Part shown: positions 12,593 to 17,208 of the stretch, piece after piece
Position numbering within the stretch: the stretch's first letter is position 1
Layout of the letters: each line of letters starts with the position of its first letter
Origin: Rhodanobacter soli
GTDB lineage: Bacteria > Pseudomonadota > Gammaproteobacteria > Xanthomonadales > Rhodanobacteraceae
Reading direction: 5' to 3'
Assembly: GCF_040548735.1 (NCBI RefSeq)
Contig: NZ_JBEPSD010000001.1
Location: 1,674,001 to 1,738,000, forward strand
DNA length: 64,000 nt
Translations under genes and position numbers: made by a program
Notes under the pieces: model-generated
Database searches by the model: none
Told to the model about the DNA's origin: nothing
What the model saw: only the letters and a program-made list of their open reading frames with translations

Positions 12593-12970
12593 TCAGCCAA
12601 CGTCGTAGAAGAACTGCTCGCGCACGATCTTGCCGCCGTGCACGCGGTATACGCCGATCTCGCTCATGTTCATCCGGCCGCGGCCCTTCATCGTCACGTC
12701 CATCGCCAGCGCGATGCTGAACCAGTTCTCCGCGATCACCGGCTCGCTCACGCTGCCGCCATGCACGTCCTCGATCATCGCGCTGAACTGGCGCCCCTTC
12801 TCGTAGATCGCCGCCAACCCCTTGACGCTCCCCAGCGCGCCCGGCGGCAGACCCTCCGGCTCGATGCTCTCCGCATCCTCGGCATACAGCTCGCGCTGCG
12901 CCTCCTCGTACTTGCCTTCACGGCACAACTCGACCAACCGTTTCGCGATCGCTTCGGTGTTCATGTGCAT
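12593..12970 (-). CDS. SnoaL/NTF2-like fold protein
   Basis: A 125-residue protein of the NTF2-like superfamily: a helical N-terminus ([24 protein letters not shown]), then SIEPEG, and a curved sheet that ends with [22 protein letters not shown]. The family includes ketosteroid-isomerase-like and SnoaL-like enzymes as well as non-enzymatic ligand binders, so no reaction is assigned. Two ATG codons lie at the start (12970 and 12964) and either could be used. It is convergent with rpoD and shares the terminator region. Confidence 0.75.
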
Positions 12971-13089
12971 GCTCCGGTTTTGGGGGGTGACCAGCCTACG
13001 CCCCGGGCCATCGCTTCACCACACGACTTGTGGCACGCCGCCGCCGGTGACGCGCAGCAATCGCGGGGACGCCCCGGGCTGTTCTCGCG

Positions 13090-13119
13090 CTGGCACGCCT
13101 CCGGCAACTCCTCTACCAT
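13090..13119 (+). promoter_or_regulatory. Possible promoter of tRNA-Ile2
   Basis: CTGGCA (13090-13095) and TACCAT (13114-13119) are spaced 18 bases apart and the tRNA starts 11 bases after the -10. Both hexamers match the sigma-70 consensus only partly. Confidence 0.4.
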
Positions 13120-13130
13120 TCATCGCTTGT

Positions 13131-13449
13131 GGGCCTATAGCTCAACGGTTAGAGCAGGGGACTCATCGAAAGGTGCCGCCATGCAGGAATGCGTGGACGG
13201 GAACGGGATGAATTCAGGGAAACCTCAGCGGCGCGCAACGCGGCCGGTGGCAACCCTGAGCCAAGCCGGCGGTACACCGCCGGAAGGTGCAGAGACTACC
13301 TGAGGGCTTCAGCGCCCTTGATCACAGGCTCGAGCGTCCCGCACCCCATCCGCCACGGGCGAAGGGTGAAGAGATAGTCCGCGCCGGAGGGAAACCTCCG
13401 GAATACGCGAATCCCTTGGTTCCAGGTTCGAATCCTGGTGGGCCCACCA
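13131..13449 (+). tRNA. tRNA-Ile2 (CAU) with group I intron in the anticodon loop
   Basis: Exon 1 is 13131-13166 and exon 2 is 13410-13449. Joined they make a 76-nt cloverleaf with encoded CCA: acceptor GGGCCTA/TGGGCCC (one T-G pair), D arm GCTC/GAGC, anticodon stem GGGGA/TCCCT around loop CTCATAA, and T arm CCAGG-TTCGAAT-CCTGG. The anticodon is CAT. The anticodon arm and variable loop (GACTCATAATC.CTTGGT) match the minor isoleucine tRNA, whose CAU is modified to lysidine by TilS so that it reads AUA, rather than elongator or initiator tRNA-Met. The gene is split after the third anticodon base, the same site as in the Azoarcus tRNA-Ile intron. Confidence 0.9.
13167..13409 (+). ncRNA. Group I self-splicing intron in tRNA-Ile2 (IC3-like)
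   Basis: The 243-nt insert has the four conserved core elements of a group I intron in order: P (AATTCAGGGAAACCT, 13211-13225), Q (CAACCCTGAGCCAAGCC, 13251-13267), R (GGTGCAGAGACTA, 13286-13298) and S (AAGAGATAGTCC, 13369-13380). P4 pairs TCAGGG with CCCTGA; P7 pairs GACTA with TAGTC; P3 can pair GGATG (13206-13210) with CATCC (13347-13351). The internal guide GUG at 13173-13175 pairs with the exon CAU with the required U-G at the splice site, P2 is a hairpin at 13177-13200, and P9 is a 7-bp stem closed by GAAA (13384-13401). The last base is G. There is no room for a homing endonuclease. Confidence 0.9.
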
Positions 13450-13471
13450 CATTTGATCGTCAAGGTGTTTG

Positions 13472-13520
13472 TTCTGGAAACCATAGTTTGGCCTGAATGG
13501 CCAACTTATGATTTCCAGAA
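13472..13520. repeat. Left-end inverted pair of a 22-bp repeat
   Basis: Two 22-base copies face each other around a 5-base spacer (13472-13493 and 13499-13520). They begin TTCTGGAAA.CATA and end GGCC; 19 of 22 positions agree when one is reverse-complemented. Related copies in direct orientation occur at 17331-17352 and 17355-17376, on the other side of the NAD/SPFH genes, and a shorter match (TCGCTTTCCGGA on the minus strand) lies near 13893-13912. Confidence 0.6.
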
Positions 13521-13943
13521 AGCATAGTCGGACCGGGGCCTCGCTAGACAGCCACTTATGGCTCGAGCGCTCTCAGCGCCGGAAGCCACCATTGCTGAAT
13601 GGCGTCTCATAGCACATTTTTGGGGATGCCGGTTTCGCGCATCAAATCCGCCAAGAGCCCTTTCCGTGACAGCAGCTTGATGTGCCTTTGACGCCAAGCC
13701 TGGATTCCATTGAACGTGGCCTCCCGAGCTTGGATCCCGAAGAGCGCCCAGGCTTCGGTGACCCTCTCTACTGCGGCGACCAAACTAAGATGTAGTGGTC
13801 GCACGAATTGCGACTGGCTTCTGAGATCGAAAGAATGAGCACCGAGCGGTACGGTTGCGGCCTAATCCGCATTGGCACATCGCCTTCAGTATCTCCGGAA
13901 AGCGATAATAGATTGTGGATACCCACGTCTCATGCGAGGCCCA
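13521..13943. other. Gene-free left flank of the island
   Basis: No convincing gene is present between the left repeat and the NAD kinase-like gene. A 65-codon minus-strand frame at 13607-13804 has plausible composition but no recognisable motif and no good ribosome-binding site; it may be a decayed gene fragment. The stretch is visibly richer in A+T than the surrounding housekeeping genes. Confidence 0.4.
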
Positions 13944-14882
13944 TCAGTTCACCAGTTGCCCGTACCTTTCCGCTACGCTGATGGTCGCAGTCATCCCGGC
14001 ATTGAATTCTAGGAAATCGGCTTCGATCCCATCACTGAAGATCACGCCGTAGCCTGCCATCTGCGAGACGAGTTGCAATGGCTCCTTATGAGTCACTTGC
14101 CCGAAAACCAACTCGACTTGTGTCGTGCGACTGGGGAACGGTTCGCGTACCGTAAACTGCAAATGAGCAGCATCCCATGCAAATCCATGTTCTCGCATGG
14201 CCTGTGCCGGCTCTGCGAGTGCGTGCCCGGCAACGCCGGCCGCACCGGCCAACAGGCTCTGAAACCACCCCGTTGAGCCCAACCCAGTCGACACAATGAT
14301 TCCACTGGAAGAATGCGTTTCGGATCGACCCCCTTGCTGTATCTGATAGCGCGCGGATACATGCGATCGCGGACCGATGAAAAGGTCATTGACCGCATAA
14401 AGCTCCTGCCCATCGCTCAAGCTCGCGCGCGCCATCGTGACGCGATTCAGCGACCGCTTCCCGGCAATAACCTCCTTCGCTATAGCCGACAGATCTTCAA
14501 CCTCGAAGGGAAGGAGAACCCCGTCCCATCGAGCGGGGTCCGGATTGACCCCAATGACCGGCTGCGCACTCTTGAGATACTTGAGCGTGTTCGCGACCAA
14601 GCCATCCTGTCCCAGCACCACGACCAAGGCATCGGGCGCAAAGAGGTAGTTGGATAAGAAGCCACGATCCAGTCGCTGAACACGGCCGAAGCGACCCAAG
14701 GTCGCCTCGGCCGTCTGCACCGCGCCTAGATAGACGCGATGCTCCGCCTCATAGTCCGAAAAGTCCGCACTCAGATGCTCGACGTAGAAGCGCGCCTGTT
14801 CGATCGTGTTGAAGCGCACGATCAACTCCTCCAGCCGCGTCTTGCGAGTCACCAGCACGATCCGCTGGTTCAGCGCATCCAT
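13944..14882 (-). CDS. NAD kinase-like protein (ATP-NAD kinase fold)
   Basis: A 312-residue protein. The ATP-NAD/PpnK fold is recognisable from VVVLGQDGLVANTLKYL (residues 87-103), where the family motif GGDG is replaced by GQDG (91-94), from AVNDLFIG (the N-D/E motif, 163-170) and from STGLGSTGWFQSLLAGA (198-214), the family's TG-S-T loop. NAD kinases phosphorylate NAD+ to NADP+. The GQDG variant and long N-terminus suggest a divergent member, perhaps with altered substrate use. The gene is last in the leftward island operon, 4 bases after the SPFH gene, and belongs with an NMN adenylyltransferase, so a role in pyridine nucleotide metabolism is inferred. Confidence 0.75.
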   Translation of the reverse strand: MDALNQRIVLVTRKTRLEELIVRFNTIEQARFYVEHLSADFSDYEAEHRVYLGAVQTAEATLGRFGRVQRLDRGFLSNYLFAPDALVVVLGQDGLVANTLKYLKSAQPVIGVNPDPARWDGVLLPFEVEDLSAIAKEVIAGKRSLNRVTMARASLSDGQELYAVNDLFIGPRSHVSARYQIQQGGRSETHSSSGIIVSTGLGSTGWFQSLLAGAAGVAGHALAEPAQAMREHGFAWDAAHLQFTVREPFPSRTTQVELVFGQVTHKEPLQLVSQMAGYGVIFSDGIEADFLEFNAGMTATISVAERYGQLVN

Positions 14883-14886
14883 GGCG

Positions 14887-15918
14887 TCAGGCCTTGGCCG
14901 GTAACTTGGCTCGCGGCTGCGTCAGCTGCTGCAACAGATCCGGCGAGATGTTGAGTTCGCCAATCCGACCGGCACCTTCAGCCAAACCTTGGAAGGCCTG
15001 CGCAATCAGCACGCTGGGGTCGGCCTGTCCGACCATCAGAGCCTGCAGCACCTTCGGATCGATGCCCTGTACTGCCTTCATGGTGGCCGCCACCGCATAG
15101 GCCTTGGCATCGGCTTCAGTCTGCGCATTCGCAGCACGCAAGGAGGTCAGGCTCTTGTTCTTGTCTTCCAGGGCAATCCTACCGGCCATATCCTGATCCT
15201 GGATTGCCTGGCGTTTGGCCAACACGGCTTGCTCGGCTTCCAACTGTGTTTCGCGGATCTGGCGCTTCTTGGTCTCGACCGCGATCTCGGTATTGAGCTC
15301 GTTTTCCTTGACCGCACGTTCCTGCTCGATCGCGGCATTGCGGCGCACGTAGGTTGCATCGTCCGCCTGCTTGAGGATCTGCTCGCGGACCTGGGCTTCG
15401 AGCGCTCGGGCCGTCTCCGGATTGGGCTTCACCGCAAGGACCGACAGATTGACCAGTTCGAGTCCAAGGCTGGAAAGGCCATCGGCGCGCTGTAGGCCTT
15501 GGCGCACGACCTGGACCAGATGATCTGAACCGCGCAGCAGTTCCTGCAGTGTTTGACCCTGCAGCACCGAACGCAACTGCACCTGCACGGCATTGACCAC
15601 TCGTTGCGGCAACTTGGTCCGGTCTTCCGAGGCATAGGTACCATCGGGTTTGAGCGTGAAGTTCATGAGACTGGCCAGCGTGGTCGGAGCGGACACGCGG
15701 TAGGTGACCTGCCCCTGCACGGTGACGACCTGAAAGTCGCTGCTGACTTCCTGGAACATGAAGGGGGTATCCACGCTTTCCAGCGGGATCGAGACCAGCG
15801 TGGCGCTGGGCGCGAAGTACCAGAACGTGAGGCCGGTGCCTTCGCGCACGGCTTTGCCGTTCTTGTACTGGATGACATAAGTGCTGGGACTGGCTTTGAC
15901 GTAGCGATAACCGAACAT
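14887..15918 (-). CDS. SPFH/Band-7 domain protein
   Basis: A 343-residue protein. Residues of about 1-190 match the SPFH/Band-7 (stomatin, prohibitin, flotillin, HflK/C) domain: TGLTFWYFAPSATLVSIPLE, FQVVTVQGQVTYRVSAP and a conserved strand-helix up to LGLELVNLSVLAVKPNPE. Residues of about 195-290 are a charged, Ala/Glu/Lys-rich coiled coil that would drive oligomer formation. Unusually there is no N-terminal membrane helix, so it is probably cytoplasmic or only peripherally bound. A ribosome-binding site (AGGGG) precedes the ATG. It lies between a 53-residue ORF (15 bases upstream) and the NAD kinase-like gene (4 bases downstream), which points to a shared complex or scaffold role. The function is inferred from context only. 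Confidence 0.8.
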   Translation of the reverse strand: MFGYRYVKASPSTYVIQYKNGKAVREGTGLTFWYFAPSATLVSIPLESVDTPFMFQEVSSDFQVVTVQGQVTYRVSAPTTLASLMNFTLKPDGTYASEDRTKLPQRVVNAVQVQLRSVLQGQTLQELLRGSDHLVQVVRQGLQRADGLSSLGLELVNLSVLAVKPNPETARALEAQVREQILKQADDATYVRRNAAIEQERAVKENELNTEIAVETKKRQIRETQLEAEQAVLAKRQAIQDQDMAGRIALEDKNKSLTSLRAANAQTEADAKAYAVAATMKAVQGIDPKVLQALMVGQADPSVLIAQAFQGLAEGAGRIGELNISPDLLQQLTQPRAKLPAKA

Positions 15919-16158: not shown

Positions 16159-17208
16159 TCAACCTCGACCCAGGAAAAACTCCAGAATGGCCAGATGGTC
16201 CTCGAACAGCTGTGGCCCCATCTCCAATGCTTCGCTCACGGGAAACCAGTGGGCCTTGTCGGCATCGTCGCCACCTTTCACGGCCGGCAACTCACCGGCG
16301 GGGAAGTCGAAGTGATACGCGTGGGTGATGGTGCGCCCGCGCTGTGATCGCTCCGGGTGATCGAATACGTGCTGGCCCTTGATCGACCCTTTGAGCACCG
16401 GCAGCGGAAGCTTGAGGCGAGTTTCTTCGCGCAGCTCACGCAAACAGGAGGCTAGGATGGATTCGTCCTGGCCCACGAAGCCACCGGGCAATGCCCAAAG
16501 CCCCTTACCCGGCTCGGCGCGACGACGCACCAGGAGTACGTGACCCGAATGCACGACGACGGCATCGGTGGTGACGAACGTCGGGGGATACGGCGAGGCA
16601 GACCAGGCAGCGCGGTAGTTCTGGATGAAGCGGTGCTCTGCCACCAGTTGCCCATACACAGCAGCATTCTTGCGGAAGGCTTCAAGCATCTCGAAGACCG
16701 GTGCTGGTACGTTGGCTTGCAGCATGCGCAACGCACCGCGACCCGCTTCGTCGGCGGCCTCGAACAAGTAGCGACGAAGCTCTGTCGCGGGGAGCGTTTC
16801 GGAATGGGGGAGATGCACCAGAGGCCACTGCGGGAATTCCTGCAGGTAGTAGCTGCTGGCATCTTTCTCTCGGCCAATCATCCCTATGCGTGCATCCGGT
16901 GCCCCGCCATCACCTTTGACGGCTTCCGCGACGGCCCGTTGTACGGCGGCGATCCAATGAGCTTCGTTGTAGAGGTGATCGCGCAACGGCAGGACGATCA
17001 GCCGTTCTGACACGTCTTCCAGCGCAGCGCAAACCATCACCGCGCGCTCGGCGACGGTCCATGGATTGCGCAGCGAACGAGGGGTGTCGGCGGAACCGAC
17101 CAGGAAAATGAGCTTCTTCGCGTGGCCCAGCGCATGACGGGCGACGGCCGCGTGGCCGACGTGGAAGGGCTCGAAACGGCCAATGAAGACCAGGTACTCA
17201 AAATCCAT
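16159..17208 (-). CDS. Bifunctional NMN adenylyltransferase / Nudix hydrolase
   Basis: A 349-residue two-domain protein. Residues 1-180 are a nucleotidyltransferase: the GRFEPFHVGH motif with H16 and H19 binds ATP, and PATELRRYL (about 140-148) is the second nucleotide-binding block. Residues 210-349 are a Nudix hydrolase with box GGFVGQDESILASCLRELRE (242-261) plus EET. Such NadM-Nudix fusions make NAD+ from NMN and hydrolyse ADP-ribose or related compounds. It is the first gene of the leftward operon, and a gap of about 495 bases precedes it. Substrate preference of the Nudix half is not predictable. Confidence 0.88.
   Translation of the reverse strand: MDFEYLVFIGRFEPFHVGHAAVARHALGHAKKLIFLVGSADTPRSLRNPWTVAERAVMVCAALEDVSERLIVLPLRDHLYNEAHWIAAVQRAVAEAVKGDGGAPDARIGMIGREKDASSYYLQEFPQWPLVHLPHSETLPATELRRYLFEAADEAGRGALRMLQANVPAPVFEMLEAFRKNAAVYGQLVAEHRFIQNYRAAWSASPYPPTFVTTDAVVVHSGHVLLVRRRAEPGKGLWALPGGFVGQDESILASCLRELREETRLKLPLPVLKGSIKGQHVFDHPERSQRGRTITHAYHFDFPAGELPAVKGGDDADKAHWFPVSEALEMGPQLFEDHLAILEFFLGRG

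Follow-up and report, generated by a model that had tools for sequence, protein, structure and literature searches.

The window, the 64-kb stretch of Rhodanobacter soli DNA analysed here, holds at 13131-13449 a tRNA-Ile2(CAU) gene that is interrupted by a group I intron and is located near rpoD, after rpoD and a gene for a SnoaL-like protein. The joined exons form a full 76-nt cloverleaf with a CAU anticodon and an encoded CCA, confirming the tRNA that the original prediction had read from the sequence, and the 243-nt insert follows the third anticodon base, U36, directly, as had also been proposed. Intronless relatives join query bases 37 and 281 of 13130-13449, which gives the boundary 13166|13410; since these relatives join the same two bases, the boundaries have support beyond folding. 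The parts of the gene and the proposed fold of its intron are as follows, with pair counts from 22 aligned type-B introns (the types are defined below).

13114-13119, plus strand: possible -10 promoter element TACCAT in the intron-bearing allele, from the count of TA[CT]CAT in intron-bearing genes
13131-13166, plus strand: 5' exon of tRNA-Ile2, tRNA positions 1-36, ending in CAU (joined-exon cloverleaf; empty-site relatives)
13164-13175, plus strand: P1, exon CAU and intron C13167 against G13172 and guide GUG 13173-13175, with U.G at the splice site and loop GAAA (sequence; GTG counts)
13167-13409, plus strand: group I intron, 243 nt, type B, with terminal G (RF00028; empty-site boundaries)
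13176-13200, plus strand: P2 hairpin with GNRA loop GGAA (9 of 10 pairs changed on both sides; the two outermost pairs weak)
13204-13210, plus strand: P3 5' strand CGGGAUG (99.4% of cells pair with 13335-13341)
13214-13288, plus strand: P4-P5-P6 domain (P4 and P6 paired in 100% of cells; P5 register 64.6-72.7%)
13294-13298, plus strand: P7 5' strand GACUA (invariant with 13375-13379 in 22 of 22; conserved, without covariation)
13299-13328, plus strand: P7.1-like extra hairpin between P7 and P3, 30 nt, CCUG/CAGG and AGGGC/GCCCU with internal loop UGAUCA (fit of type-B inserts)
13335-13341, plus strand: P3 3' strand CGUCCCG (pair counts in 22 introns)
13342-13368, plus strand: P8 (outer pairs 98.2% of cells; inner pairs 78.7% and 45.0%)
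13375-13379, plus strand: P7 3' strand UAGUC (invariant with 13294-13298 in 22 of 22)
13384-13401, plus strand: P9 hairpin with GAAA cap (6 of 7 pairs changed on both sides)
13410-13449, plus strand: 3' exon of tRNA-Ile2, tRNA positions 37-76, with encoded CCA (empty-site relatives; joined-exon cloverleaf)

A covariance search had been set beforehand as a possible refutation of the group I assignment, and it found the core: Rfam RF00028 matches 13118-13401 with 58.2 bits against a gathering score of 50 (E 3.6e-12) and is the sole Rfam family above its gathering score in the window. ARAGORN in default mode found no tRNA in the window; with introns allowed it reports a tRNA-Arg(CCG) at the interrupted gene, because it puts the intron inside the anticodon. 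The claim that the intron lacks an endonuclease ORF also held, the longest stop-ended frame, counted from a stop or the intron edge, having 69 codons; at only 243 nt the intron is too small for a typical homing endonuclease. Downstream of the tRNA lie genes for a Band 7 protein (14887-15918) and for a cytidylyltransferase-like and NUDIX protein (16159-17208), and in the related genome G025 a protein that looks similar by eye is also located by the tRNA. An island integrated at the 3' end of the tRNA was considered and rejected, as 12900-15900 contains no direct repeat of the tRNA end of at least 15 nt and the upstream neighbours are common to relatives.

The R. soli genome (3.89 Mb in 10 contigs, rated 99.99% complete) contains a single RF00028 occurrence, and the whole interrupted gene, used as a DNA query, matches it at a single place. 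Across the whole genome RF00005 detects 48 tRNAs above the Rfam cut-off, besides one weak match. With all 48 typed by ARAGORN, no second tRNA-Ile2 gene was found among them, nor is an intact, intronless Ile2 junction present in the genome, in keeping with the original view of a sole Ile2 gene. ARAGORN labels all three CAU tRNAs Met, and we read the two besides Ile2, by sequence, as elongator (L008) and initiator (L031). The CAU tRNA of the window is distinct from both, and we take it to be Ile2 from its sequence kinship with known Ile2 genes. The genome also encodes tilS (TIGR02432, 188.5 bits, cut-off 93.6), by a model that matches all 14 control genomes, 10 of them above the cut-off. In 27 ORFs of the window, picked by codon composition, AUA makes up 5 of 15301 codons and occurs in 4 of the ORFs. 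Since this is the only Ile2 gene found and AUA is rare yet used, AUA decoding should depend on splicing of the intron, an assembly gap being a small loophole.

Genome contigs were scanned with a pattern that fixes core motifs and spacings, yielding at least 119 loci; at least 111 resolve to a tRNA(CAU) gene split after CAU, and eight of the 119 listed did not resolve as tRNA and were dropped (L077, L092, L098, L128, L165, L175, L177 and L178). A looser pattern applied to viral contigs (IMG/VR) gave 39 loci, 19 of which have a tRNA(CAU)-like gene split at the same site. Two types of intron occupy this site. Type A, which is Azoarcus-like, has at most 4 bases between P7 and P3, and type B, to which the window intron belongs, has at least 20. 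Among the matches listed, 22 of 111 are type A (201-224 nt) and 89 are type B (228-334 nt), counts that are bound to the pattern and are not frequencies. The type-A introns among these matches come from 20 Betaproteobacteria and 2 genomes placed to phylum only, and the type-B introns from 61 Gammaproteobacteria, 10 Betaproteobacteria, 2 Bacteroidota, 1 Actinomycetes bin, 14 genomes placed to phylum only and 1 unplaced. The two Bacteroidota records (L126 and L133) have their type-B introns in tRNA(CAU) genes.

The fold of the window intron beats all 200 of its dinucleotide shuffles (z -3.36). Pair counts were made on 22 introns: that of the window plus 21 that were left, after removal of near-copies, from 61 genome type-B introns no longer than 262 nt. 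In this set the helices, including the P3/P7 pseudoknot, pair in 89.9% of 1518 cells, as compared with 77.0% in shuffles and 34.1-46.1% in slid versions, over which a structure derived from the window intron has an advantage. Changes on both sides are seen in 41 of 73 pairs, and 0 of 500 shuffles come as high; 218 cells are changed on both sides where 69.8 are expected. Domain folds and the 22 aligned introns agree on P2, P3, P4, P6, P8, P9 and the P7-P3 hairpin; P4, P6 and P7 hardly vary, so that their support is conservation. Support is weaker for the P5 register, for the inner part of P8, for the two pairs outermost in P2 and for the outer stem of the extra hairpin. RNAalifold departs from the chosen register in P5, where it pairs CC with GG at the base (invariant in 22 of 22), and in the extra hairpin it predicts the inner pairs and not the outer ones, which never vary in the rows aligned there.

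GTG is found in the first 26 nt of 111 of 111 genome introns among the matches listed, 19 of 19 viral introns and 30 of 30 introns from the family, whereas other stretches of 26 nt in these introns contain it in 1870 of 4351 cases; its columns are unchanged in all 22 aligned type-B introns. The last intron base is G in the same three sets (111/111 among the matches listed, 19/19 and 30/30), although the 30 family introns in this total of 160 may share species with the 111. The group I core with P3, P4 and P7, the guide GUG against CAU and the GNRA-capped P9 of the original prediction were all recovered. The P3-P8 and P4-P6 core domains, the P3/P7 pseudoknot, the U.G splice-site pair and the terminal G are present, and guanosine-dependent self-splicing of the intron is predicted.

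The extra hairpin sets the window intron apart from Azoarcus-type introns. Inserts of at least 20 nt between P7 and P3 occur in 89 of 111 genome introns (among the matches listed), 11 of 19 viral introns and 30 of 30 family introns. Of these 130 type-B inserts, 114 match the same two-part hairpin, compared with 692 of 26000 shuffled ones; the other 16 do not fit the hairpin as written. The inner pairs vary as AGGGC/GCCCU, AGGAC/GUCCU, AGAGC/GCUCU, AGAAC/GUUCU and AGCGC/GCGCU. Typical P3 strands also differ, being CGGGAUG/CGUCCCG in type B and GGUGUC/GGCACC in type A. With the insert removed, a single branch divides type A from type B in a tree of the cores (30 versus 106 rows, SH-aLRT 99); the tree is a quick one with some long branches, from which Azoarcus itself is absent and in which P3, which differs, was kept. 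No source for the type-B hairpin emerged from other tRNA introns in a draw of 398 genomes from the phylum, 25 of which have the core pattern: 22 of the 25 have GA after AGAGACTA and, by eye, no hairpin there, one (L356) is a likely chance match in coding sequence, and the insert was seen by eye in only the window intron and L357. The latter is an intron in another tRNA, from a genome of the same class, whose P7-P3 insert is also long (by eye). In addition, six family genomes (L309-L314) have group I introns, 153-196 nt matched, in tRNA-Leu-like genes (by eye). Group I introns of tRNA-Leu likewise sit in a tRNA anticodon loop, and they differ in tRNA, in locus and in having no P7-P3 hairpin by eye.

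The Azoarcus intron is about 205 nt long and has GNRA-capped P2 and P9. Group IA2 introns have two helices between P7 and P3 and a different P7 sequence; in the window intron this region is one hairpin of two stacked stems, with two clear helices not apparent, and P7 reads AGAGACUA/UAGUCC. According to the available text of PMC6274277, the guide triplet of the Azoarcus sp. BH72 tRNA-Ile intron pairs with the anticodon CAU, so that the window intron resembles this IC3 intron in its tRNA-Ile host and its guide. The accessible part of PMC4498298 describes the phage T4 td ribozyme of group IA2 as resembling the Synechococcus and Azoarcus IC3 ribozymes apart from a P7.1/7.2 extension that lies between P7 and P3. 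The Azoarcus ribozyme lacks this extension in that account (PMC4498298, in part), whereas the 243-nt window intron has an extension at this place, as the td intron does (PMC4498298, same part); unlike td, it has a tRNA as host gene. Since Azoarcus-type IC3 introns have no helix between P7 and P3 and one is present here, the window intron is not of Azoarcus type in this feature. Thus, of the predicted Azoarcus IC3 likeness, the site, guide and core stand, and the architecture does not: a hairpin occupies 13299-13328 and the core groups away from type A, whose introns serve as stand-in for the Azoarcus sequence in our comparisons.

Presence and absence of the intron were compared across the family, as the original prediction had proposed. 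A full-length copy is found in 50 of 233 family genomes, in 10 of 26 genera, and an intact junction (at most 2 mismatches) in 155, with no overlap between the two groups. The remaining 28 genomes have neither, and 14 of them are at least 90% complete, which points to divergent genes or introns that were missed. Within Rhodanobacter the gene stands beside rpoD with or without the intron; in the two relatives checked (L271 and L272) an intact gene likewise follows rpoD and the SnoaL-like gene at this place, and in some other relatives the tRNA is further away from rpoD. On an rpoD tree of 34 genomes of the genus (15 with the intron, 19 empty), drawn from 45 with those omitted that had no rpoD locus or no established state, the intron state changes at least 8 times, and on a wider tree 7 times, by parsimony counts that are blind to gain versus loss. 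Some genomes hold further copies or remnants: G025 has two tandem intronless Ile2-like genes and a partial third copy (L239:1370-1746), in G158 two intronless Ile2 genes lie about 21 kb from each other and differ in their anticodon stems (L270:9583-9658 and L320), and the Dyella-like G069 carries, outside its listed ORFs, a 97-nt intron fragment (L238:1625-1721; 92% identical) about 69 kb from its full intron-bearing gene.

The intron was compared with rpoD in 30 of the 50 intron genomes. Over all pairs of these 30, identities of intron and rpoD are weakly correlated (0.35), and the window intron is 95.3% identical to that of G144, which belongs to another genus and whose rpoD DNA is 79.5% identical. 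In an AU test on 29 genomes (one duplicate out) the rpoD topology is rejected for the introns and the intron topology for rpoD, the test being one of two fixed trees with an intron alignment of 264 columns and many weak branches. As judged from these sequences, the histories of intron and rpoD are in disagreement.

Bases outside the intron change with it. The tRNA pair 28:42 is G-C in 15 of 15 same-genus intron genes (the G-C state of G179 was first assumed in the genus tree, then confirmed), and in the 19 empty genes of the tree it is A-U in 17 and G-C in 2; intronless genes among those omitted from the tree read G-C (G159), C-G (G167) and A-U (G182). In a set of 15 intron-bearing same-genus genes (including G179) and 23 intronless genes of 22 genomes, the TA[CT]CAT element is present in 15 of 15 of the former and, of the latter, in 1 of 23 by script rule or 2 of 23 by eye; outside the genus, 10 of 16 intron-bearing genes have it. 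Because the bases that go with the intron flank its insertion site on either side, allele replacement fits better than insertion of the intron alone, and the association suggests that the whole tRNA allele was replaced at the DNA level together with the intron in the genus. The genomes, being related, do not count as independent; among independent pairs the direction is the same in 5.3 of 6 on average and never opposite (median p of the sign test, 0.06). The link between intron and 28:42 would also arise if a stronger anticodon stem were selected for, the promoter type of G144 differs though its intron is among the closest to that of the window, and the allele-transfer reading depends on few bases.

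The 19 split tRNA(CAU)-like genes on viral contigs, which are metagenomic, carry 8 type-A and 11 type-B introns. They are L184, L185, L186, L188, L189, L190, L193, L196, L197, L199, L201, L202, L207, L208, L210, L211, L215, L218 and L219, with near-copies in L184/L190, L211/L219 and L193/L201/L202. Sixteen of the 39 viral loci did not resolve as tRNA and were dropped, as were L203, L205, L214 and L216, which passed the script score with 550-1573 nt between non-tRNA-like exons. Rfam, run on 8 of the 19, places the intron above the cut-off in 8 of 8 (51.6 to 108.2 bits). A PHROGs scan of 20 ORFs from 16 viral loci gave no match for 6; the other matches include families of unknown function as well as a terminase (L215, weak in L184), a helicase (L186), an RNA ligase (L196), a sigma factor (L197) and a tail fibre (L218). 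A single clade for all 19 viral introns is rejected (p 0.0005), and the best tree needs at least 9 changes between virus and bacteria. Among INPHARED phage records 10 have short matches to exon or core, all below 80% coverage of the query, and plasmids gave no match. Many of the viral loci are close to other tRNA genes. On one phage contig a second group I intron (L207:5435-5629, 62.1 bits) lies about 0.5 kb from the tRNA(CAU) intron, and ORFs by two phage tRNA introns (L193:1724-2356 and L186:7314-8192) have weak NUMOD3 matches just under the Pfam cut-off, making them possible free-standing homing endonucleases.

The explanation that we favour, with a probability of roughly 0.88, is that a type-B group I ribozyme self-splices from the cell's only known Ile2 gene and spreads by replacement of tRNA alleles. 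Its observed basis is the gene, its boundaries, the search that found no second gene, the covarying structure, the patchy distribution and the tree conflict; splicing, the role of the extra hairpin and the route of spread are inferred. In the precursor, exon CAU would pair with guide GUG, which would make the pair at the 5' splice site U.G. A guanosine held at P7 would attack after U36, and the freed 5' exon would then attack after the terminal G of the intron. The joined tRNA would be finished, with TilS placing lysidine at C34 so that it reads AUA. The P7.1-like hairpin on an Azoarcus-IC3-like core may brace the P7-P3-P8 domain, as the IA2 extension does at the same place. Lacking an endonuclease of its own, the intron probably spreads by tRNA-allele replacement at the DNA level, with phages as possible carriers.

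Other readings can be set against this one. We consider it unlikely that the intron is a plain Azoarcus-type IC3 intron with a trivial peripheral insertion, even though site, guide GUG and the GNRA loops at P2 and P9 are the same, AGAGACUA...UAGUCC is invariant (the scan patterns themselves fixed AGAGACTA), and peripheral extensions are the place where group I introns mostly vary; the insert is shared by most introns found (among the matches listed, in the genome set) and by all 30 family introns compared, it is mostly one covarying hairpin, and both typical P3 strands and the core tree, quick as it is and with P3 still in, separate the types when the insert is cut out. There is also a real, if lesser, chance of an ancient intron with many losses in the family, in which case an intronless allele (A-U at 28:42, TAAACT-like promoter) would have swept the genus and replaced intron genes. 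The spread of intron genes over 10 of the 26 genera would agree with this, as would the 23 intronless same-genus genes, 18 of which have the A-U pair and 19 TA[ACG]ACT. It is opposed by the tree conflict in both directions and by the near-identity of the G144 intron in another genus.

That the gene is dead, the intron remaining unspliced and AUA being avoided or read by another tRNA, would suit the great rarity of AUA in the window ORFs, but it is very improbable: no other Ile2 gene was found, exons, core and helices are intact, tilS is kept, AUA is still used in several ORFs, and 50 family genomes retain the interrupted gene.

The interrupted Ile2 gene is real and is ordinary in kind, as group I introns of tRNA-Ile are already known from Azoarcus, Acidovorax and Burkholderia (PMC8450103, in the part available). 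The same part of that source, on tRNAscan-SE 2.0, notes the Acidovorax and Burkholderia tRNA-Ile2 introns and that the tRNA finder misses the gene; these introns share the tRNA-Ile2 host and are from betaproteobacteria, not from the family of the window (PMC8450103). What is new here is a branch with a structure of its own, which is inherited patchily and is also found in phage tRNA genes. A literature search, reaching few subscription papers, returned no report of a Rhodanobacter Ile2 intron, of a tRNA-Ile2 intron with a P7.1 helix or of a phage tRNA group I intron. According to the available text of a 2014 review, every phage group I intron observed up to that time was in a protein-coding gene (PMC3984707), and the phage copies described here bear on that statement.

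These results correct the class of one branch of tRNA introns and offer pairs of related natural ribozymes that share a site and differ in whether a P7-P3 brace is present; they also show that essential Ile2 genes can escape or be mistyped by tRNA finders. A broader proposal, to which we give somewhat less than even odds, is that the tRNA(CAU) introns are one mobile ribozyme lineage with two architectures which, with no endonuclease in the intron, moves between the chromosomes of bacteria and the tRNA clusters of phages by riding on replacement of whole tRNA alleles. Phages would bring spare intron-bearing tRNA(CAU) genes, and on the IC3-like core the type-B hairpin would have been added independently as an IA2-like brace. 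If this is true, AUA decoding would repeatedly have been made dependent on an acquired ribozyme.
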